Source: Gammaproteobacteria bacterium
GTDB taxonomy: Bacteria > Pseudomonadota > Gammaproteobacteria > GRL18
Direction: 5' to 3'
DNA length: 63,357 bases
Assembly: GCA_027012135.1 (NCBI GenBank)
Contig: JALUZF010000167.1
Span: forward strand, 1 to 63,357
Shown in pieces: positions 28,744 to 43,211 of this stretch. Position numbers and translations under genes: made by a program. Positions within the stretch are counted from its first letter, which is position 1. Each line of letters begins with the position of its first letter. Below the pieces are notes generated by a model. It was not told the origin of the DNA and made no database searches. It saw nothing but the letters and a program-made list of their open reading frames with translations.

Positions 28744-29061
28744 TTATATGATAACCCGGAAAAGTAAAGCAGCTGGCACAAACAAAAATCCTCAACTATA
28801 TTTTTAGCTAATTGATATCTACCTGTTTATTAAGCTTCTAACTTCACCCTTCTTTAGAAGGGGAAAGCAGTTTCTGAATGGACACATATTAATATCCTGA
28901 AGGCTATTAATATAACAATAAAGCCGTATTTACCAGAATTTTTTTAAAAAAGCTAAAGCTTTAATGATTTTATCCGATAGAGCTAATTAAGAAGTAATAG
29001 AATATGAATCTCTGGTACACAGCGACTATGACAAAATCTGCAAAACTGACCCGGAATAATT
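28744..29061. other. Divergent intergenic region with a sigma-28 promoter
   Basis: The 318 bases separate the DUF1538 set (-) from the chemotaxis cluster (+). I see a CCCTTC/GAAGGG hairpin with a TTTA loop at 28847-28862 and the sigma-28 promoter described separately at 28954-28980. No gene is apparent. A CCTTCTCTAGAAG variant of the hairpin occurs near 62031. Confidence 0.6.
28954..28980 (+). promoter_or_regulatory. Sigma-28 (FliA) promoter of the chemotaxis operon
   Basis: TAAAGCTT at 28954-28961, 11 bases, then TCCGATAG at 28973-28980. The FliA consensus is TAAAGTTT, 11 bases, GCCGATAA, so 13 of 16 positions match with exact spacing. It lies 81 bases before the first ATG (29062). This would place the whole cluster under flagellar late-gene control. 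Confidence 0.75.
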
Positions 29062-29367
29062 ATGAGTGAATCTGAAAGCCGTTCTGAACAGAATGATGCA
29101 GGAACCGTTATTTTTGATGACTCCCTGGATATAACTCTGGTGGCTGGGTATTTTGAACAGTTCAGTCAGCTATTAAATGAACAGAAAAGCATTATATTAA
29201 ATGGTGCAGATATTGAGCGGGTTGATGGTGCGGGTCTGCAGCTGCTGGCGGCTTTTTTCAAGTCGGCAGAACTTCTGCAAATCAGCGTTCAGTGGCAGGG
29301 AGTATCAGATAGTCTAAAGCACGGTGCGGAAAACTCCGGTTTAACTGGCGTACTGGCACTGGATTGA
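29062..29367 (+). CDS. STAS-domain protein, first gene of chemotaxis operon
   Basis: The 101-residue protein is a single STAS domain (anti-anti-sigma or lipid-asymmetry type): TVIFDDSLDITLV, KSIILNGADIERVDGAGLQLL near 42-62, then a C-terminal helix. The position usually occupied by a phosphorylated Ser or Thr reads VDGAGLQL, so no phospho-acceptor is present there. It therefore may not be switched by a kinase. It lies 60 bases before cheY. Small STAS proteins at the head of che operons are known in other Proteobacteria but their role is unclear. Confidence 0.78.
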   Translation: MSESESRSEQNDAGTVIFDDSLDITLVAGYFEQFSQLLNEQKSIILNGADIERVDGAGLQLLAAFFKSAELLQISVQWQGVSDSLKHGAENSGLTGVLALD

Positions 29368-29427
29368 CTATCTTTAAACCTAAAGGAACCGTACAGATTT
29401 AACACTATCGCTAATGGAGAATAATTA

Positions 29428-29793
29428 ATGCCCAGGTCAATTCTAGCCGTTGATGATTCAACATCCATGAGACAGATGCTTGCATTTAGCCTCAAGGGGG
29501 CCGGTTATGAGGTAGAAGAAGCGGCTGATGGACAGCAGGCGCTTAATATAGCCAAAACCAGAAGTTTTGATTTAGTACTCTCTGACGTCAATATGCCGGT
29601 TATGGATGGTATTGAACTGATCCGTCAGTTGCGGGCTTTACCAACCTATAAATATACTCCGATTCTGATGCTTACCACGGAAGCTGGGACAGAGAAAAAA
29701 ATGGAAGGTAAAAATGCCGGTGCTACCGGCTGGATTGTTAAACCCTTTAATCCGGATCAATTACTAAATACGGTTAAGCGGGTGCTGGGTTAA
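29428..29793 (+). CDS. cheY: Chemotaxis response regulator CheY
   Basis: The 121-residue protein is a stand-alone receiver domain. The acid pair is VDD at 8-10, the phosphorylated residue is Asp53 (SDVNMPVMDG), the switch Thr is in LMLTTE near 83, and the conserved Lys is in IVKPFN near 106. CheY~P carries the signal from CheA to its output, normally the flagellar switch. GGAG seven bases upstream supports the start. It lies between the STAS gene and cheA. Confidence 0.93.
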   Translation: MPRSILAVDDSTSMRQMLAFSLKGAGYEVEEAADGQQALNIAKTRSFDLVLSDVNMPVMDGIELIRQLRALPTYKYTPILMLTTEAGTEKKMEGKNAGATGWIVKPFNPDQLLNTVKRVLG

Positions 29794-29861
29794 AAAACAG
29801 CAGCCATATTATATAAACAGAGTGGGCCTGGATTAATTTTTACCAGAGAGAGAATCAGATA

Positions 29862-32024
29862 ATGAGTATTGATTTATCGCAATTTAAGCAGTCTTTCCTG
29901 GAAGAGAGTGATGAAGGGCTGGATGTACTGGAGTCAGGACTGCTGGCACTGGACTCTGGAACTGCCGATGATGAAGTGATTCATGCTGTGTTCCGGGCTG
30001 CTCATTCAATTAAGGGGGGAGCCGGTACTTTTTCTCTTACAGAAATTGCCAGCTTTACCCATGTTATGGAAACCCTGCTGGATGAAATGCGTGATGGGCG
30101 CAGGGCAATCAGTAAGGAAGCCATTAATGTTCTGCTTAATTCAGTTGATGTACTTCGTGAATTACTGGATGCTGCCCGTGACGATGTGCCGCCTGAAATG
30201 AGCAGGGTGAATGAGATTCAGGCAAAACTGGAAGCGGTATTAAACGCCGGTAATAATCAGGCAACAGAAGATAAGCAGGAAGCAGAAACTGAATCAGAGC
30301 AGCAAGAGCCAGAAGCAGATGGCTGGGTTATTAAATTTCATCCCCATGAACATATGCTCCGAACCGGCAATGATACCGTGCGTATGTTTAAGGAACTGGC
30401 GGCTCTTGGCGATCTCGAAAACCGGGTGAATTTAAGCGGTCTGCCGGAATTTGAACATATGGATCCGGAACTGAGTTATCTGAGCTGGATCCTCCATTTA
30501 AAAAAAAATGAACAGCAGGGAGCTATAGATAAGGCCGTCATAGAAGAAATATTTGAATGGGTGGAAGATGACTGTGATTTAAGTATTGAACCCTTAACTT
30601 CTGAACCAGATGATACTAGTACATCAGAACAGAACGATTCCCCACAACCTGCTGAAATCCCTGTCAGTGAAACTATAACAGCAGCGGATAATGTTATTCC
30701 CATTACTGGAGAAAGTGATGCTCAGACAGTGCCTTCTAAAGTGCCTGCAGCCGGGGTGCAACAGCCTGCCGAAGCCCAGCAAAAATCATCCACCAGGAAG
30801 AAAAAAGCCACTGAAACCGGTTCTATCCGTGTGGGTACAGACAAAATTGATACCCTCATTAATATGGTTGGAGAACTGGTTATTACTCAGTCTATGCTCA
30901 GTCAGATGGGTGAAGATTTTTCCATGGATAAAATCGAAGATCTGAGAGAAGGACTGGCTCAGTTAGAACGCAATACCCGGGAACTACAGGAAAGCGTTAT
31001 GCGTATTCGTATGCTGCCCATCAGTTCTTCCTTCCAGCGTTTTCCCAGACTGGTTCATGATCTGGGCCAGAAAATGAACAAGAAAATTGAGCTTAAAATG
31101 TTCGGTGAACAGACTGAGCTTGATAAAACCGTTATGGAAAAAATTGGTGATCCTCTGGTGCATTTAGTGCGCAATTCACTGGATCATGGTATTGAAGATC
31201 CCCAGACCCGTCTGGCAGCAGGTAAGAGTGAAACCGGCACCATTACCCTTAATGCCTATCATCAGGGCGGTTTTATTATTATTGAAATTTCTGATGACGG
31301 TGCAGGCCTGCCCAGAGACAAATTATTAAACAAAGCCATAGAAAAAGGCCTGGTGACTGAACAGGATAACCTGCCCGATGAAAAAATTTATGATCTGATT
31401 TTTCATCCCGGCTTTTCTACTGTAGACCAGATCAGTGATATTTCCGGTCGGGGCGTAGGCATGGATGTGGTGCGAAAAAACATTAAGGAGCTCGGCGGTA
31501 ATGTTGATGTCCGCACCGAAGAAGGCCGGGGCACTACCTTTACCATCCGCCTGCCTTTAACCCTGGCTATTCTTGACGGACAGCTGGTTAAGGTCGGTAA
31601 CGAAACTTATATTATTCCATTAGTGTCAATTATTGAATCGCTGGAAATTGAGACAGACAATATTAATACCATTGCCGGTACCACTGAAGTGTACAAGATG
31701 CGCGATAAATATATTCCATTAGTCCGGCTGTATGAAGTCTTTGATGTGCAGCCGGGCACACATCGTTTACAGGATTGCCTGCTGGTTGTAGTAGAAGGTG
31801 ATGGTGGCAAGGCGGGTATCCTGGTGGATGATTTATTAAGTCAGCAGCAGGTGGTCATCAAGAGTCTGGAAACCAATTATAAACGAATACAGGGTGTTTC
31901 CGGAGCCACGATACTGGGTGATGGTACGGTCGCCCTGATCCTTGATATGAGCGGTCTGCTGACCCTGGCAAAAGAAATTGAACCGGTACAGAATTACCAA
32001 AATCAGACTTATGCTAATGGATAA
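29862..32024 (+). CDS. cheA: Chemotaxis histidine kinase CheA
   Basis: The 720-residue protein has an HPt domain (1-105) with the phosphorylated His48 in FRAAHSIKGGAGTF. A P2-type linker region (about 150-250) and an acidic low-complexity spacer follow. Next come a dimerisation helix pair (SIRVGTDKIDTLINMVGEL, near 322), an ATPase domain with HLVRNSLDHGIED (N box) and DDGAGLPRDK/GRGVGMDVV (G boxes), and a C-terminal CheW-like domain. It phosphorylates CheY and CheB under receptor control. Its stop overlaps an ATG of the cheW frame, though I prefer a later cheW start. Confidence 0.96.
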   Translation: MSIDLSQFKQSFLEESDEGLDVLESGLLALDSGTADDEVIHAVFRAAHSIKGGAGTFSLTEIASFTHVMETLLDEMRDGRRAISKEAINVLLNSVDVLRELLDAARDDVPPEMSRVNEIQAKLEAVLNAGNNQATEDKQEAETESEQQEPEADGWVIKFHPHEHMLRTGNDTVRMFKELAALGDLENRVNLSGLPEFEHMDPELSYLSWILHLKKNEQQGAIDKAVIEEIFEWVEDDCDLSIEPLTSEPDDTSTSEQNDSPQPAEIPVSETITAADNVIPITGESDAQTVPSKVPAAGVQQPAEAQQKSSTRKKKATETGSIRVGTDKIDTLINMVGELVITQSMLSQMGEDFSMDKIEDLREGLAQLERNTRELQESVMRIRMLPISSSFQRFPRLVHDLGQKMNKKIELKMFGEQTELDKTVMEKIGDPLVHLVRNSLDHGIEDPQTRLAAGKSETGTITLNAYHQGGFIIIEISDDGAGLPRDKLLNKAIEKGLVTEQDNLPDEKIYDLIFHPGFSTVDQISDISGRGVGMDVVRKNIKELGGNVDVRTEEGRGTTFTIRLPLTLAILDGQLVKVGNETYIIPLVSIIESLEIETDNINTIAGTTEVYKMRDKYIPLVRLYEVFDVQPGTHRLQDCLLVVVEGDGGKAGILVDDLLSQQQVVIKSLETNYKRIQGVSGATILGDGTVALILDMSGLLTLAKEIEPVQNYQNQTYANG

Positions 32025-32056
32025 TGGAAAGAGATATGCCCGATCCGGAGAAAATA

Positions 32057-32572
32057 ATGAGTGATATTCAGGATATTGTTGGTGAACTTGATGCTTTGAC
32101 CGATGAGAATGCAGAACAGTATTTAACTTTTGTTCTGGCCGGTGAGGAATATGCGATAGATGTTCTGAGAGTCCGGGAAATAAAAGGCTGGGATAAAGTC
32201 ACTACTTTACCCAGAACCCCTGATTATCTGCAGGGTGTTATTAATCTTCGCGGTACCATTGTACCTATTGTGGATTTAAGAAAGCGTTTTAACCTGCCGG
32301 AAATAGCCTATGGCCCAACCACGGTTGTGATTGTACTTAAAGTTTTTGGTGAAGAACATGACCGCATTATGGGGATTATTGTTGATGCAGTTTCTGATGT
32401 GCATAATCTGAAATACGATTCCATTCGCCCGGCACCGGAAATGAAAGGTTATGTGGATAATCGTTTTGTTAATGGCCTGGCAACCATCAATAATAAAATG
32501 GTGGTGCTTATGGATATTGATGCCCTGATGAGTTCAGCAGAGATGGATGAAGTTGAACAGCCTGCTGCATAA
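32057..32572 (+). CDS. cheW: Chemotaxis coupling protein CheW
   Basis: The 171-residue protein is one CheW domain that links receptors to CheA. Typical segments are QYLTFVLAGEEYAIDVLRVREI, LPRTPDYLQGVINLRGTIVPIVDLRKRF, and MGIIVDAVSDV. The frame is also open from ATG 32024, overlapping the cheA stop, but ATG 32057 has GGAG with six-base spacing. The prefix MERDMPDPEKI is probably untranslated. It is followed 15 bases later by the ParA-like gene. Confidence 0.93.
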   Translation: MSDIQDIVGELDALTDENAEQYLTFVLAGEEYAIDVLRVREIKGWDKVTTLPRTPDYLQGVINLRGTIVPIVDLRKRFNLPEIAYGPTTVVIVLKVFGEEHDRIMGIIVDAVSDVHNLKYDSIRPAPEMKGYVDNRFVNGLATINNKMVVLMDIDALMSSAEMDEVEQPAA

Positions 32573-32587
32573 ACTGATTGAGATCAC

Positions 32588-33364
32588 ATGAGAGTGATTG
32601 CTGTAATGAACCTGAAAGGTGGGGTAGGCAAAACCACCACCACGTTAAATCTTTCTCATGCCCTGGCTTTAGAAGGACAGAAAGTGTTAATGCTGGATAT
32701 GGATCCACAGGGTCACCTGGGCAGCTGTTTTAGTGTTAATACCGATAACAGCAGCGGCATGGATGAAGTATTACTGGATGGAAAAGAGATAGCTGAAGTT
32801 ATACAGAAAGTACGTGATAATCTGTTTCTTATTCCTGCCGGAGTCCGTCTGGGTGAAATAGAAACCCCTCCGCAAAACACTGATGCTGCTTCACAAAGCA
32901 GAATCGGCTATCAGCTTTATGATGCATTGTCAGCTTTGCCGGAAAATGAATATGACTTCATTCTGGTGGACTGTCCGCCGGCATCCGGTTTACTGGCCAT
33001 GAATGCCATTTTAGCCTGTGAAGAATTTGTAGTACCGGTAACCGGTGATTACCTGGCTTTACAGGGCTTGTCCCGGCTGATAAAAGTGGTTACCCATATA
33101 GAACAGGTTCTGGAAAAAAACACCCGTAAATGGTTTGTTGTTACCCGCTACCAGAAACAGAGAAAACTGGCTCAGCAGATCCGGAGCAAACTGGTCAGTT
33201 ATTTTCCTGATCAGGTTTTTGAAACAGCCATTCGGGAAAATGTATCGCTGGCTGAATCGCCTGGTTTTGCAAAAACCATTTTCGAATACAGGCCCAGAAG
33301 TAATGGGGCCGAAGATTACCGGCAACTGGCCATTGATCTGCTTGAAAACAGAACACTATCCTAA
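32588..33364 (+). CDS. ParA/MinD family ATPase in chemotaxis operon
   Basis: The 258-residue protein is a ParA-type ATPase with the deviant Walker A motif LKGGVGKTTTTLNL (9-22), MLDMDPQGHLGS near 37-48 and Walker B FILVDCPPASGLLAM near 120-134. ParA proteins bind the nucleoid as ATP dimers and move or space cargo when a partner stimulates hydrolysis. The gene lies between cheW and a soluble receptor. Homologues in that place (PpfA of Rhodobacter sphaeroides, ParC of Vibrio and Pseudomonas) position chemotaxis arrays. No ParP gene is seen here. The last codons and the stop lie inside a palindromic element, so the C-terminus may have been altered. Confidence 0.88.
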   Translation: MRVIAVMNLKGGVGKTTTTLNLSHALALEGQKVLMLDMDPQGHLGSCFSVNTDNSSGMDEVLLDGKEIAEVIQKVRDNLFLIPAGVRLGEIETPPQNTDAASQSRIGYQLYDALSALPENEYDFILVDCPPASGLLAMNAILACEEFVVPVTGDYLALQGLSRLIKVVTHIEQVLEKNTRKWFVVTRYQKQRKLAQQIRSKLVSYFPDQVFETAIRENVSLAESPGFAKTIFEYRPRSNGAEDYRQLAIDLLENRTLS

Positions 33365-33440
33365 ATAAGTCAGTTGAATCGTAGCGAGAATGTTCAGTGC
33401 TATGAACATTCGCAGTAGGTTCAACTGATTTATTTAGGAT
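33358..33440. repeat. 83-bp palindromic element overlapping the parA stop
   Basis: ATCCTAAATAAGTCAGTTGAA (33358-33378) pairs with TTCAACTGATTTATTTAGGAT (33420-33440), 20 of 21 positions, the exception being a G-T pair. An inner GAATGTTC/GAACATTC stem (33388-33411) continues the fold. The parA stop TAA (33362-33364) is inside the left arm. It resembles a miniature inverted-repeat element, or an intra-operon RNA hairpin between parA and mcp. There is no T-run. Confidence 0.7.
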
Positions 33441-33468
33441 TATATTAATGAATTAATCAGGTAATAAT

Positions 33469-35376
33469 ATGACGGCAAATAAAGAACGTCTGGGTTTTGA
33501 TCCCCTTGCCTGGATGGGTGAAGATAATAAACCGGACAGTGACAAAAATGACACTAAAAAAAATACAGCCGAGGCTAAGGTTTTAGCCGGCGATGCCGAT
33601 ACAGAAAATAAAGCGGCTTCCGGTAATGCTGTAAAACGTACCAGAGCTGTAAAAGCTGCCAGAGCCGTAAAAACTGCCAGAGCCGTAAAAAAAGTGGTAA
33701 GGAAAAAAGCCGTAAGAAAATCGAACACGTCTGTTAATACCACAGTTAAAACAACGATAATAACGAATAAAACCGCGCAACCGCAAACCGAGGTTAAGAC
33801 CATGGCAACCAAAGCAAATGATGCCGAAATGAAAATTAAAAATTCCGTTCTCAATGCCATGACGTCGGCAGTAATGACAATTGATCAGGATCTGGTTATT
33901 ACCTTTATTAATCCGGCCGCCCAGAAATTAATGAAACGAGTCGAGCATCGTTTGCAGCAGAATTTTCCGGACTTTAATGCAGATAAGCTAATCGGCAAAT
34001 GTATTGACGATTTCCATAAAAACCCGGCTCATCAACGGCGCCTGTTAAGTGATCCTTCCAATTTGCCGTATCAGGGGGTTATCGATCTGGGTGATATACA
34101 GTTTGATCTGAATGTGACCCCTTTATATGATGATGACGGTAACTTTATCGGTGCCTGTCAGGAATGGAAAGATATTACCGAGCTGAAAAAAAACCAGCTT
34201 CAGATAGAAGGTTTGATTGATGTTGCAGCAAAAGGTGAACTGAATAAACGCCTTAATGCGGATGACTTTGACGGTACCATGAAAAACATTGTTTCCGGAA
34301 TGAATCGGATGCTGGATCAGTTTGTAAAACCCATTCATGCCATTCTGGATGTGGTTAAAGCACTGGAAGAAGGTAATCTGGTTAAACGCATGGAAGGTGA
34401 ATTTGAAGGTGAGTTTGCCAGCTTACAGCAAGCCATGAATCAGTCCATGGATAATCTGTTAAAAATGGTCTCGGAAATCCGGGTATCTGCCAGCCATATT
34501 TCATCTGCTGCCAATGAGATATCCCAGGGTAATACTGATCTGAGTCAGCGTACGGAAGAGCAGGCCTCATCTCTTCAGGAAACAGCTTCGAGTATGGAAG
34601 AATTAACGTCCACTGTAAAACAGAATGCTGATAATTCCCGTCAGGCCAATCAGCTGGCCGCCGGTGCCCGTGATCAGGCTCAGGAAGGCGGGGAAGTGAT
34701 TAATTCCACCATTTCTGCTATGGAAGATATTAATTCTGCAAGCAAGAAAATTGAAGATATTATCGGTGTTATTGATGAAATTGCTTTTCAGACCAATCTG
34801 CTGGCATTAAATGCTGCGGTAGAAGCGGCCAGAGCAGGGGAGCAGGGACGCGGTTTTGCCGTAGTAGCTTCCGAAGTGCGCAGTCTGGCACAACGCAGTG
34901 CAGCCGCCGCAAAAGAGATTAAGGCATTAATTAAGGACAGTGTGGAAAAAGTTGAAGAGGGTACCCGACTGGTGGATGATTCCGGTCAGACCCTGGGAGA
35001 AATTGTTAATTCAGTACGAAAAGTTAGTAATATTATTGCTGAAATTGCTGCGGCCAGCAGTGAGCAGTCTGCGGGTATTGAACAGGTTAATAAAGCCATT
35101 ACCCAGCTGGATGAAGTTACTCAGCAAAATGCCGCACTTGTGGAAGAAACAGCGGCTGCCAGTGAATCCATGGATGATCAGGCACGCAGCTTAAATGAAA
35201 TGATGAACTTCTTTGAAACCGGTGAAACCGATCACGCAATATCTGCTTCACCGGCAGTAGAGCGAGTTTCTGCTCCTGCTGCAAAGGCACCAAAAGTGAC
35301 CCCTGAATTACAGCCTGTGGCTACAGCTTCGGCTCCTGCCACTGCCAGTGATGATTCGGAATGGGAAGAATTTTAA
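33469..35376 (+). CDS. Soluble methyl-accepting chemoreceptor with basic N-terminus and PAS domain
   Basis: The 635-residue receptor has no membrane segment. Order: a short motif FDPLAWM at 10-16, an acidic stretch, a very basic Lys/Arg/Ala region (55-85) built from tandem copies of an 18-base unit, a PAS domain (about 125-240), a HAMP-like region (250-335), and the signalling hairpin (about 345-590). The hairpin contains the conserved tip [35 protein letters not shown]. The protein ends SEWEEF, a CheR/CheB tether like NWETF. It is presumably the input of this array. The basic tail next to the ParA gene suggests nucleoid or ParA contact (inference). Confidence 0.92.
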
Positions 35377-35480
35377 ATTCTAATTTAAGCACTGTTTTAA
35401 GTACTTTAGTACAGCTGTTTCAACTCCAGTCTGGATACTATTCCGGAGCTCATTAATTTTTATTACCCTGGTTGTTATAC

Positions 35481-36320
35481 ATGGCCTCAGTAGACAAAAA
35501 GTTTACTTTTACTGATAAAAACTTTAATCACATTCGTGATATTGTTACTGAGCATTCCGGTATTGTATTATCTGATGCCAAGCGGGACATGGTCTACTCA
35601 CGTCTGGTGCGGCGTCTAAGAGCTCTGGGTATTTGTAATTTTGACGATTACTGTACACTTCTGGAAGATCGTAACCATGAAGAATTCACTCATTTTATCA
35701 ATGCCATTACCACCAATTTGACCTCATTTTTTCGTGAAAATCACCACTTTGAAATGCTGGCTAATGAAATCCTGCCGGATATTATGCAGCGCAATCGTAA
35801 TAGTAAAAAGATACGGGTCTGGTCAGCGGGCTGTTCCACGGGTATGGAAAGCTATTCCATTGCTATGGTGTTAAAGGAAGTGATTCCGGAACACCTGGGC
35901 TGGGATGTCAAAATACTGGCTACAGACCTGGATACCAATGTAGTAGCGACCGGAGCCAGGGGGGTTTATCAGGCTGACCGGGTAACCGGTGTCTCTGATG
36001 AACGTATGGCCCGCTGGTTTATGCAGGGCCGGAGTGCCAATGCAGACAAGTTAAAAGTCTCCAGGGAACTGCGTCAGATGATTACCTTCAAGCCTATGAA
36101 CCTGCTGCAGCCATTTCCTTTTAAAGGCCCGATGGATATTATTTTTTGCCGTAATGTAGTTATCTATTTTGACAAGGATACCCAACGGCAGTTGTTTGAC
36201 CGCTTTGCTAATGTTCATGCCCAGGGCAGCTACCTTTTTATTGGTCATTCCGAAACTCTGTATAATGTCACTGATCGTTATCAACTCATCCGTAACACAG
36301 TCTACAGGAAGATTGCCTGA
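35481..36320 (+). CDS. cheR: Chemotaxis protein methyltransferase CheR
   Basis: The 279-residue protein methylates receptor glutamates using SAM. It has the N-terminal helical domain (FTDKNFNHIRDIVTEHSGIVL), the SAM site RVWSAGCSTGMESYSIAM near 115-132, and the later motifs KILATDLDTNVV and DIIFCRNVVIYFD. The frame extends to TTG 35472, but ATG 35481 is the natural start. It follows the receptor gene by 104 bases and precedes cheD. Confidence 0.94.
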   Translation: MASVDKKFTFTDKNFNHIRDIVTEHSGIVLSDAKRDMVYSRLVRRLRALGICNFDDYCTLLEDRNHEEFTHFINAITTNLTSFFRENHHFEMLANEILPDIMQRNRNSKKIRVWSAGCSTGMESYSIAMVLKEVIPEHLGWDVKILATDLDTNVVATGARGVYQADRVTGVSDERMARWFMQGRSANADKLKVSRELRQMITFKPMNLLQPFPFKGPMDIIFCRNVVIYFDKDTQRQLFDRFANVHAQGSYLFIGHSETLYNVTDRYQLIRNTVYRKIA

Positions 36321-36474
36321 TCCTTTACTGAAAACTCCTTCTTTTTTTAAAAAGTGCAGGCAAAAAAGTTTTTTTCAACTAGAATTAGGGTTGATTACTG
36401 ACTATTTGATGATTTACCTGCTGTTTTTTGTTTAAGCTGAATTAATCATCATTGATTTAATACAAAGAGCTTTA

Positions 36475-37131
36475 ATGGAAGAGAAATCCGCATTCAGTTA
36501 CCGAAACAGAACGCCTCAGGTGGCGTTGCCCGGGTTTAACGGTATTAACCGTTACTGGGATAAACTGCATCAATCTTTTGCCGCCAAAATATTACCCGGT
36601 GAATACTATGTAACATACCATGATGAAGTTATTGTGACGGTACTGGGATCCTGTGTTTCAGCCTGTATCCGGGATCGAATTTTCGGTATCGGAGGTATGA
36701 ACCATTTTATGTTGCCTAATACCCAGGATGATTTATCTCACCATATTAATTCCGGGCCTTCTACCTCAGCATCCCGTTATGGTTCTTATGCCATGGAAAT
36801 GCTGATCAATGATATTCTCAAGCATGGTGGTCGTCGGGAGAACCTGGAAGTCAAAATATTCGGCGGCGGTAAAATTCTGCGTCATATGACAGATGTAGGT
36901 AATCGAAATATCGAGTTTGTTGAAGAATACATTGCCCTGGAAGGTATTCCACTGATTTCAGAAGACACCGGTGATATTTACCCCAGGAAAGTGGTCTTCC
37001 ATCCCAACAGTGGTAAAGTTAAAGTTAAAAAATTACGTTCATTGCATAACGATACATTGATTAAACGTGAAGAAGAATACCAGCATACCATTGAGGAAAA
37101 GCCGGCTGCAGTCGATATAGAGCTGTTTTAA
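36475..37131 (+). CDS. cheD: Receptor glutamine deamidase CheD
   Basis: The 218-residue protein matches CheD, which deamidates receptor glutamines. The catalytic Cys is in VTVLGSCVSACIRD and the His in GIGGMNHFMLP; a later NIEFVEEYIALEGIPLISEDTGD is typical. An N-terminal stretch of about 40 residues precedes the domain. ATG 36475 follows AAAGAG. It lies between cheR and cheB, completing an adaptation set. Confidence 0.92.
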   Translation: MEEKSAFSYRNRTPQVALPGFNGINRYWDKLHQSFAAKILPGEYYVTYHDEVIVTVLGSCVSACIRDRIFGIGGMNHFMLPNTQDDLSHHINSGPSTSASRYGSYAMEMLINDILKHGGRRENLEVKIFGGGKILRHMTDVGNRNIEFVEEYIALEGIPLISEDTGDIYPRKVVFHPNSGKVKVKKLRSLHNDTLIKREEEYQHTIEEKPAAVDIELF

Positions 37132-37223
37132 TATAATACCCTTACCCCAGATTTCTTACGAAGGGAGAGGTGATAAATGGACGAACGCAGGTTAAAGTCA
37201 GCGACATTTAGGGATATAAAATT

Positions 37224-38291
37224 ATGGCAAAAAAAATAAAAGTTTTAATTATTGATGATTCGGCACTTATCAGGCAATTACTGCAGGAGATCCTGAGTCA
37301 GGATCAGGCTATTGAAGTAGTAGGTACCGCATCGGATCCGTTAATTGCAAGAGATAAAATTAAACAGTTACTGCCGGATGTACTGACACTGGATATTGAA
37401 ATGCCTCGCATGGACGGCATTACCTTTTTAAAGAATCTGATGCGGCTGCGTCCTATGCCGGTGATTATGATCTCGACATTTACCGAAGCTGGTGCAGATG
37501 TCACCCTGGAAGCACTGGAGATCGGTGCGGTAGATTTTGTACCGAAGCCCAGGGTGGATGTCGCCAGTAAACTGCAGGAATATGCAGATGATATTATCAA
37601 CAAGGTTAAAGTGGCTTCGGTTGCACGGGTACGTTCAGGTACAGCGGGTATTCCCAATGTAGATGAAAAACTTTCAGCCGATGCGGTGCTGCAAAAAGCG
37701 CCACAGAAATTTCTCAGGACGACTGAAAAAATTATCACCATTGGTGCTTCTACTGGCGGTACAGAAGCCATCAAGGAAGTGCTGACACGTATGCCTTCGG
37801 ATGCTCCGGCTATTGTGATCAGCCAGCATATTCCTGCGGCATTCAGTGAACCCTTTGCTAAACGTATGGACGGTTGCAGTGCTATGACTGTGTTTGAAGC
37901 ACAGGATGGCCAGCGAATTTTACCGGGTCATGTCTATATTGCACCGGGCAGTCATCACCTTCTTGTAGAGTGTAATGATGCTAATTATATTTGCCGTTTA
38001 AATGGCGGTCCCCCGGTTAACCGCCATAAACCTTCGGTTGATGTAATGTTTCGTTCCGTGTGCCAGAACGTCGGACCTAATGCGGTTGGAGCCATACTGA
38101 CGGGTATGGGTGATGATGGAGCCAGGGGATTAAAAGAACTGCAGGAAGTTGGTGCTTCCACCATTGCCCAGGATGAGAAGTCTTCCGTGGTGTGGGGGAT
38201 GCCCGGTGAAGCGGTAAAACTGGGAGGGGCCGATTTTATTCTGCCCCTGGAAAAAATTACTGATAAATTACTCGAACTGAGTGCGGGATAA
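37224..38291 (+). CDS. cheB: Chemotaxis methylesterase/glutaminase CheB
   Basis: The 355-residue protein has a receiver domain with Asp57 (TLDIEMPRMDG) and a C-terminal methylesterase. The catalytic Ser is in IGASTGGTEAI near 175, His in ISQHIPAAFSEPFA, and Asp in LTGMGDDGARG near 295. It removes methyl groups from receptors when phosphorylated by CheA. It is the last of the core che genes; the STAS gene follows after 72 bases. Confidence 0.95.
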   Translation: MAKKIKVLIIDDSALIRQLLQEILSQDQAIEVVGTASDPLIARDKIKQLLPDVLTLDIEMPRMDGITFLKNLMRLRPMPVIMISTFTEAGADVTLEALEIGAVDFVPKPRVDVASKLQEYADDIINKVKVASVARVRSGTAGIPNVDEKLSADAVLQKAPQKFLRTTEKIITIGASTGGTEAIKEVLTRMPSDAPAIVISQHIPAAFSEPFAKRMDGCSAMTVFEAQDGQRILPGHVYIAPGSHHLLVECNDANYICRLNGGPPVNRHKPSVDVMFRSVCQNVGPNAVGAILTGMGDDGARGLKELQEVGASTIAQDEKSSVVWGMPGEAVKLGGADFILPLEKITDKLLELSAG

Positions 38292-38363
38292 AGCTTTAGC
38301 TAAACCCAATAATAAAGAGACATAAACAATCGTTGTCTAAAATAACAATAATGGAGAAATATT

Positions 38364-38666
38364 ATGCCTATTACCAGCCAGGTTCATGACGATACTGTAA
38401 ATATAACCATTGCAGGTCGTTTTGATTTTAGTTGTCATAAAGAGTTTCGAGATGCCTATCGCAATACCCCGACAGGCAGCAGCAAGAAATTTATTATTGA
38501 TATGTCCCAGACAGAATATATTGACAGTTCTGCATTAGGTATGCTGCTTCTGTTAAGAGAATATGCCGGAAGTGAACAGGGTAGTGTGCACTTAAAAGGC
38601 TGTCGTAATGATGTAAAAGATATTTTAATGGTTTCAAATTTTGACAAACTGTTTGAAATTTCCTGA
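38364..38666 (+). CDS. hsbA: STAS anti-anti-sigma factor, HsbA-like
   Basis: The 100-residue protein is a SpoIIAA-type STAS domain: VNITIAGRFDFSCHKEFR, then IIDMSQTEYIDSSALGMLLLLRE near 45-66. The phosphorylatable Ser sits in DSSALGM, as in classical anti-anti-sigma factors. GGAG seven bases upstream supports the start. It is followed by a phosphatase/kinase response regulator and an HPt gene. This order matches hsbA-hsbR-hptB in Pseudomonas aeruginosa, where HsbA switches between an anti-sigma factor and a diguanylate cyclase. I use the symbol by analogy. Confidence 0.78.
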   Translation: MPITSQVHDDTVNITIAGRFDFSCHKEFRDAYRNTPTGSSKKFIIDMSQTEYIDSSALGMLLLLREYAGSEQGSVHLKGCRNDVKDILMVSNFDKLFEIS

Positions 38667-38698
38667 GCCAGAATAGTTTAAGTAATAAAAGTAATTGA

Positions 38699-40411
38699 AT
38701 GAAAATCCTGATAGTTGATGATGAATTAAGCAATAGAATGATCCTCTCTGCCATTCTTAAAAAAGAAAGCTATACCGTTGTCTCTGCTGTAAATGGTCAG
38801 GAGGCCATAGATGTTTTTCAGCAGGAGGAACCGGATCTGGTATTAATGGACATTATGATGCCGGTTATGGACGGTTATGAAGCTACCCGGAAAATAAAGG
38901 CAATATCACAGGAAAAATTCACTCCGATTATTTTCCTGACGGCCATGACCGATGAGCAGGCATTAAGACGCTGCGTGGAAGTGGGTGGTGATGACTTTCT
39001 GTCCAAACCCTATAACCAGGTGATCATTAAAGCCAAGATAGATGCACTGGAAAGAATGAGCCAGCTTTACAATACCGTTAATAAACAGAAACATGAATTA
39101 CTGGCTCACCAGGAGCATGAAAGCAAGGAGCAGGAAGTTGCCCGAAAAGTTTTTGACAGTATTTTAAATCCGGGCTGTTTGTCTGCAGAAAACATTAAGC
39201 TGCATTTATCGCCCATGTCCCTGTTTAATGGTGATGTCGTACTGGCTGTGGTAAAACCGACGGGTGGTCTGCATGTTCTGTTTGGTGACTTTACCGGCCA
39301 TGGACTGGCAGCTTCACTGGGTGCTTTACCGTTATCGGATGTGTTTTACAGCATGACAGCCAAGGGTTATTCTATACATGATGTGGTGCGTGAAATAAAT
39401 CGTAAGTTGAAACATCAGTTACCCACGGGGATGTTTCTGGCAGCCTGCCTGGTGGAAATTGATACTATTAATAATATTTTAAAATACTGGAACGGTGCTA
39501 TTCCCGCGGCCTGGCTGCATAAGGGGGATTCTGTTGTGGAATTAAAATCTCGTCATCTTCCTCTGGGCATACTGGATGACAGCAGCTTCAGTGACAAGGT
39601 GGATATTATTAAAATTAATGATAATGACAAAGTTATACTCAGTACTGATGGTATTCTTGAAGCAGAAAACAGTTCAGGTGAAATGTTCGGAGTTGAACGC
39701 TTTACAAACTGTCTTCAGGTTAATATGAATAATACAGACAGTGCAGATAATGATAGAGAAATTGATCTGTTTGAGCATATCCTGGATACCCTGGATAATT
39801 TTATTCAGGAGCAGGAGCAGAGTGATGATGTAACATTGGGAGTTATTAGCTGTGACATGGCGTATATTAACCAGCTGGCCAGCCAGAGAGGCTCCTATAA
39901 AAAATTTGTACCTACGCATTGGGAATTTGAATTACTGTTTTATTATGACTGCATTAAAACCGTAGATCCTGTGCCTCTAATTAATCAAATCATGGGTGAA
40001 ATTCAGGGTCATCAGATACAGCAGGATAAACTCAGTACAGTATTAACAGAGTTGTTCTGTAATGCTCTGGATCATGGATTGCTCGGACTTGATTCCAGTA
40101 TCAAATCTTCACCGGAAGGTTTTATGCAGTTTTATACCGATAAGGAAGAACGCCTGAATAAATTAGACAGTGGTTCAATTAAAATTTCTGTAAAAAATAT
40201 CCCTAATAATACGGGTGGAGACCTGTTTATTATATTTGAAGACAGCGGCCAGGGTTTTGATGTCAGTTCACTGGAAAAAACAGAAACAGATAAGGAATTC
40301 CCCATATTCTCAGGACGAGGTTTGTCACTGATAAAAAATTATTGTCAGTCCGTCAGTTTTAACGATGTCGGTAACCGTGTGGAATGTATTTATTCATGGT
40401 CAAATAGTTAA
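38699..40411 (+). CDS. hsbR: Response regulator with PP2C phosphatase and kinase domains, HsbR-like
   Basis: The 570-residue protein has three parts. The receiver (1-120) has Asp51 in LMDIMMPVMDG and the Lys in LSKPYN. A SpoIIE/RsbU-type PP2C domain (about 165-385) carries the metal motif FGDFTGHGLAAS and STDGILEAEN. A C-terminal HATPase of the RsbW type (about 430-570) has ELFCNALDHG (N box), FEDSGQGF and GRGLSLIKNY (G boxes). It should both phosphorylate and dephosphorylate the STAS protein encoded before it, depending on phosphorylation of its own receiver. The HPt protein encoded next is the likely phosphate source. This matches HsbR of Pseudomonas, where the module links surface growth, biofilm and motility. 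Confidence 0.85.
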   Translation: MKILIVDDELSNRMILSAILKKESYTVVSAVNGQEAIDVFQQEEPDLVLMDIMMPVMDGYEATRKIKAISQEKFTPIIFLTAMTDEQALRRCVEVGGDDFLSKPYNQVIIKAKIDALERMSQLYNTVNKQKHELLAHQEHESKEQEVARKVFDSILNPGCLSAENIKLHLSPMSLFNGDVVLAVVKPTGGLHVLFGDFTGHGLAASLGALPLSDVFYSMTAKGYSIHDVVREINRKLKHQLPTGMFLAACLVEIDTINNILKYWNGAIPAAWLHKGDSVVELKSRHLPLGILDDSSFSDKVDIIKINDNDKVILSTDGILEAENSSGEMFGVERFTNCLQVNMNNTDSADNDREIDLFEHILDTLDNFIQEQEQSDDVTLGVISCDMAYINQLASQRGSYKKFVPTHWEFELLFYYDCIKTVDPVPLINQIMGEIQGHQIQQDKLSTVLTELFCNALDHGLLGLDSSIKSSPEGFMQFYTDKEERLNKLDSGSIKISVKNIPNNTGGDLFIIFEDSGQGFDVSSLEKTETDKEFPIFSGRGLSLIKNYCQSVSFNDVGNRVECIYSWSNS

Positions 40412-40479
40412 TCTGCCTGAACCTGTTTTACAGATATATAATAAATTTTTACCTAAAACCTAAACTATATGGAATTATT

Positions 40480-40818
40480 ATGACTGATAACTCAATTGAT
40501 TTAACTACCCTTAATGAACTAAAAGAAATAATGGGAGATGATTTTTCTGAACTGGTTACGGTATTTATTTCTGATACTCAAACACAGCTCGATGATCTAT
40601 TTGCCGCTATAGAAACTTCTGATGCACCGGCTATAAAACGTATTTCTCATACAATAAAAGGCAGCAGTGCTAATCTGGGCATAGAAAATTTGTCGGCTAT
40701 TAGTAAAGAACTTGAATTAAAAGCAGCAGATAATAATATCGATAGTTCTGATGAACTGTTAAATTCTATTGTTAATGAATATAACGATGTTAAAATTGAA
40801 CTGGAAAAATTATTATAA
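40480..40818 (+). CDS. hptB: Histidine phosphotransfer protein, HptB-like
   Basis: The 112-residue protein is a free HPt domain with the phosphorylated His57 in IKRISHTIKGSSANLGI. HPt proteins relay phosphate from hybrid kinases to receivers. Lying directly after the HsbR-like gene, it probably phosphorylates that receiver, as HptB does in P. aeruginosa. The donor kinases are not in this window unless CheA serves. Confidence 0.85.
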   Translation: MTDNSIDLTTLNELKEIMGDDFSELVTVFISDTQTQLDDLFAAIETSDAPAIKRISHTIKGSSANLGIENLSAISKELELKAADNNIDSSDELLNSIVNEYNDVKIELEKLL

Positions 40819-40944
40819 ACCTGTTTTTTCTGTTTAATAAATAAGTTTAATGTATAAAAAGTCTAATAATTTTTAATGGAAATTTGTAACATGCTGATTT
40901 GCAGTATATAATTAAAAAAATCCATAATCGTTGAGGTGAATAAC

Positions 40945-41571
40945 ATGGCAACTGTCAAAAAGGCTGCATTAAAAAAAGCAGCAAAAAAAACTGTTAAGAA
41001 AAAATCAGCAATGAAAAAAGCCGTTAGCAAGAAAAAAGCCGTTAGCAAGAAAAAAGTAGTTAGCAGAAAAAAAGTTATTAAGAAAAAAGCTGCTGTAAAA
41101 AAAATACCTGTTAATAATACCGAAGTAACTAAAGAACATGCGGCTGCTATTCGTGTTATGGAACGCGCTTCCAATGCACTGGACAAAGCCATAAATGCTG
41201 TTAGTGCTGCAGTAGATAAAGCAAAAGCGGCTGCAGATAAAGCCAGGGAAACCAAACGCCCTGCACATAAAAATGCTGCAGCAAAAGCCAGAGAACGAGT
41301 AGCAGCTTTAAAAGTTAAACAGAAGGAAGCTGCTGACAAGCTTAAAGAGCAAATGGCTGTAGTGAAGGAACATGAACAGCAGGCTGTAGAAATGGCTAAA
41401 ATGGCTGCAGCAAAAGCTACTGCACTGGCCGCTTATGCTATTAAGTGGGAAAAGGAATACCTGAAAAAACTGACTCAAAAACAAAAAGCCCAGGCTAAAC
41501 GTAAAGCCGCTGCTGCCAAAGCCAGAAAAAAAGCGGCCGCTGCTAAAAAACGTGCTGCAAAAAACAGCTAA
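40945..41571 (+). CDS. Histone H1-like Lys/Ala-rich DNA-binding protein
   Basis: The 208-residue protein is extremely rich in Lys and Ala. The first 55 residues are basic repeats (KKAVSKKKAVSKKKVVSRKK) encoded by tandem near-identical units at about 41015-41070. Residues 65-175 form a long charged helix with heptad-like Ala and Lys/Glu. The last 35 are again Lys/Ala/Arg (AKARKKAAAAKKRAAKNS). This is the pattern of bacterial histone H1-like proteins such as AlgP and Hc1/Hc2, which bind the nucleoid. The frame starts with GTG 40936, but ATG 40945 has GAGGTG six bases upstream. It is 126 bases after hptB, with a terminator after it. A role in the chemotaxis array is speculation. Confidence 0.75.
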   Translation: MATVKKAALKKAAKKTVKKKSAMKKAVSKKKAVSKKKVVSRKKVIKKKAAVKKIPVNNTEVTKEHAAAIRVMERASNALDKAINAVSAAVDKAKAAADKARETKRPAHKNAAAKARERVAALKVKQKEAADKLKEQMAVVKEHEQQAVEMAKMAAAKATALAAYAIKWEKEYLKKLTQKQKAQAKRKAAAAKARKKAAAAKKRAAKNS

Positions 41572-41592
41572 AAAATATCAGCTCAATACTAC

Positions 41593-41623
41593 CCTAACCC
41601 TCTCCCCCTGGGAGAGGGTTAGG
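41593..41623. terminator. Bidirectional hairpin and dispersed repeat
   Basis: CCTAACCCTCTCCC (41593-41606) and GGGAGAGGGTTAGG (41610-41623) form a perfect 14-bp stem with a three-base loop between two convergent genes. The right arm and the following bases (41610-41630) are identical to 17347-17367, so it also belongs to a repeat family. Confidence 0.65.
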
Positions 41624-41651
41624 ATGAGGGCATTAAAAAATAATTACTTTT

Positions 41652-43211
41652 CTACCCAATCTCCAGCTCAAACTTAATCGCTTTTAAATACTCCCGTTCC
41701 TGTTCCAGATCCACCAGCGTTAATGGATGCTGATCAAAAAAGTCTTCCGGGAATATTAACCTGAGTTTCTTTTCACCGGCTTCTGCTTTTATTTCAGGCT
41801 GGTTATCTTCACCACGGCCTCTGTGCAGTAAAACACTCAGACGTAATAATATGGCCAGGTACATTAAAGACTGGTAACAGTTTTCAGGCAGGGTTTTAAA
41901 ATCCCGTTTGGGAAATTTGCGGCGTTGTGCACGGATCAGTAAGGCCAGACGATGTTGTTCTCTGCGGGAGAAACCGGGCAGATCAGAATTTTCTATAATA
42001 TAGGCACCGTGCTTATGATACTGGTTATGGGCAATAGACAAACCTGCTTCATGTAACTGGGCCGCCCATTGCAGGGTCTGTTCACTGTTAAAATGTTCTA
42101 TCGGCCAGTCATGCTGCACCTGCTGATACAGGTTCAGCATAGTCTTTTCAACTTCTTTGGCCTGACGGGTATCAATATGATACTGTTTGATAAGATGGTT
42201 AATGGTTCTCAGACGGACATCTTCATGATGAAAACGTCCCTGCAGATCATAAATAACCCCTTCACGCAAAGCACTGTCTGAGGCATTCATAGACTCAATT
42301 TTAAGTACCTTAAAGGCCGCATATAAAATTGCAACACCACCGGCAAAAACAGCCTGACGTTCCTCTGCCAGACCATCAATCTGTAATTTGTTAATGCTTT
42401 TCTGTTTGATCATTTCCTTAATCAGCCATTTCAGACCGTCGGTAGTGATGCCGGGAAAGGGTGTGGGTTCTTCCTGGGCATCATTATAGGCACGCAATAC
42501 TTTACCAATGGCCTTAATAGTACCGGATGCACCAGTGGCATAAGTCCAGCCGACTTTACGATAGGTGTTTTTAATGGTTTCCAGTTCCAGACGGGCATAG
42601 AGTTCTGCAATTTTAAAATTGGTCTCATTAAGTTTGCCGTCTGCAAAGGCTTTTAAGGTCATGCTGACACACCCCATATGCAGACTTTCCGTGTGATCAG
42701 GGGTAAAGCCTTTACCAATGATAAACTCGGTACTGCCGCCGCCGATGTCTATGACCAGACGGTTCTGATCGTTTTCTGACTGGCTGTGGGCCACGCCCAG
42801 GTAAATCAGTCGGGCTTCTTCCCGGCCGGCAATCACCTCAATGGAATGGTTCAGAGAAGCTTCTGCTTTTTGAATAAAACGGGCGCCGTTTTTTGCCTTG
42901 CGTAAAGTATTAGTTCCAACAATGCGGATGTTTTCTTCCGGTATGTTTTTTAGACGCTGACCAAAACGAGCCAGACAATCCAGTCCGCGTTGTTGGGCCT
43001 CTTTGCTGAGTTTGCCTTTTTCATCAAGACCGGAAGCCAGACGAACCATTTCTTTCATGCGGTCGATGATCAGGAGTTGATCGTTTTTAACTTCCGCGAC
43101 AATCAGATGAAAACTATTAGAGCCTAAATCAATGGCGGCAAAAACATTTTTACGATTGTCTGTGGTATTAATATTTTCTGTAGTAACAGAAGGGGTATTT
43201 TCATTAGTCAT
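41652..43211 (-). CDS. ppx: Exopolyphosphatase (Ppx/GppA family)
   Basis: The 519-residue protein cleaves phosphate from polyphosphate, or the 5'-phosphate of pppGpp. It has the actin-like ATPase starts FAAIDLGSNSFHLIVAEV near 24-41 and LVIDIGGGSTEFIIGKG near 150-166. Also present are VGTNTLRKAKNGARFI and the C-terminal HD-like helical domain (about 320-519). Length is that of E. coli Ppx (513) rather than short homologues. Whether Ppx or GppA specificity applies cannot be told from sequence alone. No polyphosphate kinase gene lies beside it. Confidence 0.88.
   Translation of the reverse strand: MTNENTPSVTTENINTTDNRKNVFAAIDLGSNSFHLIVAEVKNDQLLIIDRMKEMVRLASGLDEKGKLSKEAQQRGLDCLARFGQRLKNIPEENIRIVGTNTLRKAKNGARFIQKAEASLNHSIEVIAGREEARLIYLGVAHSQSENDQNRLVIDIGGGSTEFIIGKGFTPDHTESLHMGCVSMTLKAFADGKLNETNFKIAELYARLELETIKNTYRKVGWTYATGASGTIKAIGKVLRAYNDAQEEPTPFPGITTDGLKWLIKEMIKQKSINKLQIDGLAEERQAVFAGGVAILYAAFKVLKIESMNASDSALREGVIYDLQGRFHHEDVRLRTINHLIKQYHIDTRQAKEVEKTMLNLYQQVQHDWPIEHFNSEQTLQWAAQLHEAGLSIAHNQYHKHGAYIIENSDLPGFSRREQHRLALLIRAQRRKFPKRDFKTLPENCYQSLMYLAILLRLSVLLHRGRGEDNQPEIKAEAGEKKLRLIFPEDFFDQHPLTLVDLEQEREYLKAIKFELEIG

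Follow-up and report, generated by a model that had tools for sequence, protein, structure and literature searches.

In Rhodobacter sphaeroides, the cytoplasmic chemosensory cluster is positioned by the ParA-like ATPase PpfA via the N-terminus of the soluble receptor TlpT (PMC3964821), and of 206 species examined, 77 have a ppfA homologue within a che operon (PMC2829493). ATPases of the ParA/MinD type are activated by short, positively charged N-terminal peptides carried on otherwise unrelated proteins, and TlpT has been suggested to be one of these activators (PMC7993993). FrzCD of Myxococcus xanthus is a soluble receptor in which a histone-tail-like basic peptide near the N-terminus, comprising residues 7–27, is needed for efficient DNA binding (PMC5716589). 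In the polar, Vibrio-type F6 arrays, the ParA-family ATPase ParC is encoded beside ParP, which has a CheW domain. The F7 array is ancestral, functionally unexplained and the inferred source of the E. coli chemotaxis machinery; by cryotomography, F7 systems form tall arrays that run parallel to the inner membrane, and ParA goes unmentioned in the paper that describes these arrays and their gene order (PMC7184735).

The window, by which we mean the whole 63,357-nucleotide stretch of gammaproteobacterial DNA analyzed here, contains one che operon on the forward strand, with the order STAS-cheY-cheA-cheW-parA-receptor-cheR-cheD-cheB-STAS-phosphatase-Hpt-like. The first gene (29062–29367), recognized by sequence, Pfam and operon comparison, encodes a STAS-domain protein that lacks the peptide motif described below. 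It is followed by cheY (29428–29793), assigned from its sequence and its conserved position in orthologous operons, and by cheA (29862–32024) and cheW (32024–32572), which, like cheR (35472–36320) beyond the receptor gene, were assigned by Pfam. The cheD (36475–37131) and cheB (37224–38291) genes were read from their translations and served as BLAST references. A second STAS gene (38364–38666) and an Hpt-like gene (40480–40818), both read from the sequence, flank a gene for a response regulator receiver with a SpoIIE-type phosphatase (38699–40411), the latter identified by Pfam. Rfam gave no match within 29000–42000 of the window.

When compared with the published gene orders (PMC7184735), the operon follows the stage 1 F7 arrangement. 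The stage 1 Aer2 systems of Vibrio cholerae and Methylomicrobium alcaliphilum have in common with the window the order STAS-cheY-cheA-cheW-...-aer2-like receptor-cheR-cheD-cheB-STAS-phosphatase. They differ in that a second cheW-like gene is described at the slot occupied by parA in the window, and in the presence of an McpA-like receptor gene, of which none was seen in the window operon. Gene content and order place the window operon among F7/Aer2-type chemosensory operons, here one that encodes a ParA as well.

The parA gene (32588–33364) encodes a 258-residue ATPase of the ParA/MinD type, belonging to a che-linked ParA family. It was identified as an ORF with a Pfam match to AAA_31 (E 5e-43) and carries the deviant Walker A sequence KGGVGKTT; the solved chains nearest to it are those of ParA/Soj. 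Residue 9 (32612–32614) is Leu, giving MNLKGGVGKTT, at a position where the six closest relatives have MNQKGGVGKTT; Leu is also found in locus L085. A plasmid search for named ParA relatives returned, among the matches listed, only ordinary ParAs, with identities of at most 38%.

The stop region of parA is supplied by a long palindromic hairpin (33361–33445), a dispersed, MITE-like element recognized by its fold (−46 kcal/mol as RNA, z −9.7) and by 89 partial matches in its own genome, where the other copies mostly consist of two end pieces ≈90–120 bp apart. Comparison of the intergenic regions showed that the hairpin is missing at the same site in the nearest relative (L037, whose ParA is 97% identical), and as a dispersed element absent from that relative it was rejected as a conserved regulator of parA and the receptor. 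Since 85 of the 104 bases between the two genes come from this element, parA and the receptor gene are not tightly coupled in the window genome. The inserted palindrome could affect their co-transcription.

As the first-pass annotation had stated, parA lies directly before a receptor without a membrane segment: the second gene (33469–35376) encodes a protein of 635 residues in which a hydropathy scan detected no such segment, and Pfam, NCBIfam and hydropathy together identify it as a soluble Aer2-type chemoreceptor. Pfam placed a PAS domain at residues 126–236 (33844–34176), HAMP_2 at residues 267–329 and an MCPsignal domain at residues 395–551 (34651–35121). The top NCBIfam model was Aer2 (E 1e-190), with a score of 636 bits, which is below the equivalog cut-off of 1200. 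The protein ends in EWEEF (35359–35373), fitting the C-terminal x-[HFYW]-x2-[HFYW] pattern of the CheR-tether pentapeptide described for Aer2-like receptors (PMC7184735).

Near the N-terminus of the receptor is the peptide GFDPLAWM (residues 9–16; 33493–33516), of which the part FDPLAWM (residues 10–16) had already been picked out in the first-pass annotation; it is the sole match to the DNA pattern for FDPLxWM in the window genome. Further along lies a histone-like segment rich in Lys, Arg and Ala (residues ≈55–85; 33631–33723), with a net charge of +14 over the 30 residues starting at residue 55. This segment had been described as made from tandem 18-base units, which holds for about half of it: the 18-bp array (33641–33691; 2.8 copies, 93% matches) covers residues ≈58–75 and is directly followed by a 15-bp repeat (33687–33720). 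The tail is shorter in L037, where the whole receptor has 622 residues, indicating that the basic segment changes quickly. A reverse ORF over the basic segment (33453–33860) was taken to be an artefact of composition.

The gene pair resembles PpfA–TlpT in that a ParA-like ATPase adjoins a soluble, candidate 36H-type receptor in a che operon (PMC3964821, PMC6829392, PMC7993993), and the operon has no parB. In that system, the N-terminus of TlpT is the proposed contact and activator; the likeness considered here is one of gene arrangement and receptor type. The receptor also resembles FrzCD by composition, being a soluble receptor with a basic N-terminal peptide, with DNA binding shown for FrzCD only (PMC5716589); unlike FrzCD, it has a partner gene for a ParA and carries GFDPLAWM ahead of the basic segment. 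In PomX/PomZ and McdB/McdA, too, the established or proposed activator of the ParA is a short N-terminal peptide of basic character, borne by a scaffold of unrelated type (PMC7993993), but here the cargo is chemosensory and the conserved core, GxDPLAWM, is hydrophobic and Trp-containing, not only basic.

At E ≤ 1e-45, 39 of the 369 genomes sampled from the class have an orthologue of parA. In a phylum-wide search of 398 genomes at E ≤ 1e-60, parA matches were restricted to the window genome and three genomes of one further family, the only one outside Gammaproteobacteria to yield a match. The parA family was compared at 48 loci, which were fetched with their flanks and annotated by BLAST against the window operon; six close loci (L037–L042) are from MAG contigs. 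At most loci, parA is found within a che operon. At 43 of the 48, the motif is present near the N-terminus of the ORF immediately 3′ of parA, 23–317 nt after that gene, and the protein that carries it is not always the same: 26 loci have it on a receptor, and the other 17 on a protein that has a STAS domain or was placed in the STAS class. The 26 window-type loci have the motif on the receptor and not on the STAS protein; conversely, in operons with the order receptor>parA>STAS, the receptors are without it. Three non-gammaproteobacterial loci have parA>STAS with the motif retained. The STAS carriers include globin–STAS fusions, and Pfam was used to check L057, L067 (E 0.003 only) and L082 (a globin–STAS fusion). 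The motif is absent from five parA loci (L083, L085, L080, L070 and L086), the last of which is cut by a contig end. In some operons with STAS carriers (L065, L069, L075), membrane segments are predicted for the receptors, and a cytoplasmic array may therefore not be the cargo in every case. At two loci (L067, 6234–7432; L074, 5775–7045), parA is paired with a STAS gene whose product bears the motif, and the flanks that were fetched contain no che genes.

Alignment of the 43 motif-bearing N-termini gave the consensus [MLI]-G-x-D-P-L-A-W-[MLI], usually preceded by Lys or Arg and with acidic residues after it, or roughly KKxx-[ML]-G-F-D-P-L-A-W-M. The search expression imposed D-P-[LF] and W/A, leaving the flanking positions free. 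At these, Gly was found at −2 in 40 of 43 rows, M/L/I/V at −3 in 42 and M/L/I at +5 in all 43. The Trp was present in 41 rows, with Ala or Ser before it, and Lys or Arg occurred at −8, −7, −6 and −4 in about half. Two of the 17 STAS rows (L065 and L069) have DPLAAL instead of DPLAW, and the carriers in L078, L087 and L149 have no Lys or Arg ahead of the motif.

The association of the motif with parA was then examined against two backgrounds. The DNA pattern for G.DPL.W[ML] produced 34 hits in the 369 genomes, 24 of them just 3′ of parA and 10 elsewhere; a reversed control of the pattern produced 15 hits in the same genomes, so there was no excess of the motif away from parA. Eight of the 10 off-target hits were read, and these look like chance occurrences in short frames, repeats or unrelated enzymes. 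For the second comparison, orthologous CheA was located in 69 of 274 genomes, and 40 CheA loci without a linked parA orthologue were fetched, of which 30 were complete enough to judge. None of these 30 parA-less operons had the motif, compared with 20 of 21 parA-bearing ones from the same sample in a hand tally that counts the looser DPFDW of L081 as the motif (Fisher p about 3e-13, with the true significance weaker, since the genomes are phylogenetically dependent and not independent samples). In one parA-less F7 operon (L158, 4470–7172), the receptor has MATKKKMNFDPLVSM (FDPLVSM), in which the Trp is lost and behind which there is a basic stretch; this looks like a decayed form of the motif. 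In a genome from the same family as the window genome (L152), the orthologous operon, with a CheA 70–72% identical, has neither parA nor motif, and both of its receptors are of other types.

The basic tail was distributed differently. It had initially been proposed that the histone-like segment contacts DNA or stimulates ParA, and a search for homologues with parA beside a soluble, N-terminally basic receptor had been suggested. Such homologues do exist: a strongly basic stretch follows the motif in 21 of the 26 motif-bearing receptors. This frequency, together with the basic N-termini often seen in activators of ParA ATPases (PMC7993993), is what one would expect if the histone-like segment contacted or stimulated ParA, or joined the array to ParA through DNA. 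However, parA and the motif persist without a strong tail in L055, L062, L059 and L066, which are below the threshold for a basic stretch, as is L084; loss of the basic segment from a locus that keeps parA is the very observation that had been named beforehand as incompatible with the proposal. The STAS carriers are a further instance, since their linkers are mostly acidic (median net charge −14; two of 17 with a basic stretch; p 2e-5 by Mann–Whitney against receptor carriers), and basic tails are kept by soluble receptors from parA-less loci (L158, L160, L175, L177). Across parA-bearing and parA-less loci, then, the motif goes with ParA, and the basic tail with the soluble receptor. The comparison does not support the histone-like segment as the ParA contact, a role that we now consider very unlikely.

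The parA-less receptors with basic tails raise a different scenario, in which the clusters form through binding of nucleoid DNA by the tail alone, with ParA and the motif serving another purpose. The peptide needed for DNA binding by FrzCD provides a precedent (PMC5716589), but such tethering leaves the linkage between motif and parA across two unrelated carrier proteins unexplained, and we consider it unlikely. By analogy with FrzCD, the tail may nevertheless bind DNA directly. In the mechanism that we prefer, the Lys/Arg-rich tail of the window receptor would make a weak direct contact with DNA and would not be the ParA-specific element.

That element would be the motif itself. We consider it reasonably likely that the motif is a ParA-docking and ATPase-stimulating element in the nucleoid-based positioning or partitioning of the array. 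ATP-bound ParA would coat the nucleoid, and the many copies of the motif displayed by a receptor array would bind ParA and then release it, and the array would thereby be positioned on the nucleoid or partitioned with it. The peptide would thus probably serve ParA as a handle for holding the sensory array and setting its position. The original suggestion of a PpfA/TlpT-like pair with the receptor N-terminus as the contact fits the comparative evidence in its core idea, with the contact being assigned to the motif; binding to ParA, stimulation of its ATPase and positioning on the nucleoid are what we infer from the pattern of linkage. AlphaFold2 was run on ParA and the receptor N-terminus from L039, in which the parA and receptor frames are continuous across one TAG that was read through for this purpose; the motif had a pLDDT of about 30–35, in a calculation with a ParA monomer and a thin alignment.

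In related operons, a STAS protein bears the peptide instead of the receptor, and this occurrence on a second protein suggests that the motif is a portable ParA handle, placed on whichever partner neighbors parA. When the carriers are mapped onto a 57-row tree of ParA, three changes are needed for the receptor label and five for the STAS label; those forced by well-supported branches number one and two, respectively, as the backbone is poorly resolved. Carrier switching has likely occurred, the number of events not being settled by this tree. Twenty positions set the window parA family apart from other ParAs, as judged against an outgroup of five rows, which is few. D154, R187 and E217 are among these and are invariant in 43 of 43 sequences.

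The frequency of STAS carriers (17 loci) might also indicate that ParA acts on the STAS/SpoIIE-phosphatase branch and not on the array, and the parA–STAS pairs of L067 and L074, which have no che operon around them as far as the loci were fetched, would agree with this. Such a role is difficult to reconcile with the 26 loci, including the window, in which the receptor and not the STAS protein bears the motif, and it appears improbable to us. Under the portable-handle reading, a more far-reaching possibility is that G-x-DPL-x-W-M constitutes a self-sufficient ParA-recruitment tag of 15–25 residues that has moved among chemoreceptor, STAS and globin–STAS proteins, bringing each carrier under the same nucleoid-bound ParA, also outside che operons. 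We put this forward tentatively, as a proposal with slightly less than an even chance of being correct.

The first-pass annotation had further stated that no ParP is present. This is correct for the window, where the operon has no ParP-like CheW-domain protein beside parA, but not for the genome: in a flagellar F6-type che cluster on another contig (C303; L205, 8863–11799), genes for a ParC-like ParA, a 504-residue ParP-like CheW-domain protein and a CheW lie in a row. Because this cluster has its own ParC-like ParA, the cell probably has two separate ATPases for array positioning, the product of the F7 parA being the second. Both would be ParA-family ATPases for positioning of a chemosensory array, but ParC has ParP encoded beside it and the F7 parA is without such a neighbor. 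Polar use of a ParA thus probably does occur in this cell, and F7 tall arrays run parallel to the inner membrane (PMC7184735), as might be expected if the F7 ParA placed its array at the cell pole through an unknown landmark, in the manner of ParC/ParP. Neither the carriers, which are a soluble receptor or a STAS protein, nor the 48 loci as annotated, where no ParP-like gene was noticed beside parA, point in this direction, and we think that a polar function is quite unlikely.

A ParA with a soluble receptor is already known. In the literature searched, no ParA-linked motif that switches carriers was found, and "DPLAWM" appeared only in two unrelated oncology papers; the PpfA–TlpT literature consulted describes no switching of the carrier to STAS. 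If many F7 operons do include a ParA partner, part of the F7 lineage would use ParA-based array positioning, through a component unmentioned in the published cryotomography and gene-order work. As a small and mutable element, the motif opens the link between ParA and its cargo to direct testing, and its presence on carriers unrelated to each other would offer a natural case of modular evolution of ParA partners.

Just past the che operon, at 40936–41571, there is a gene with a GTG start and no Pfam match to its product, a Lys/Ala-rich protein of 211 residues that resembles histone H1 and AlgP.
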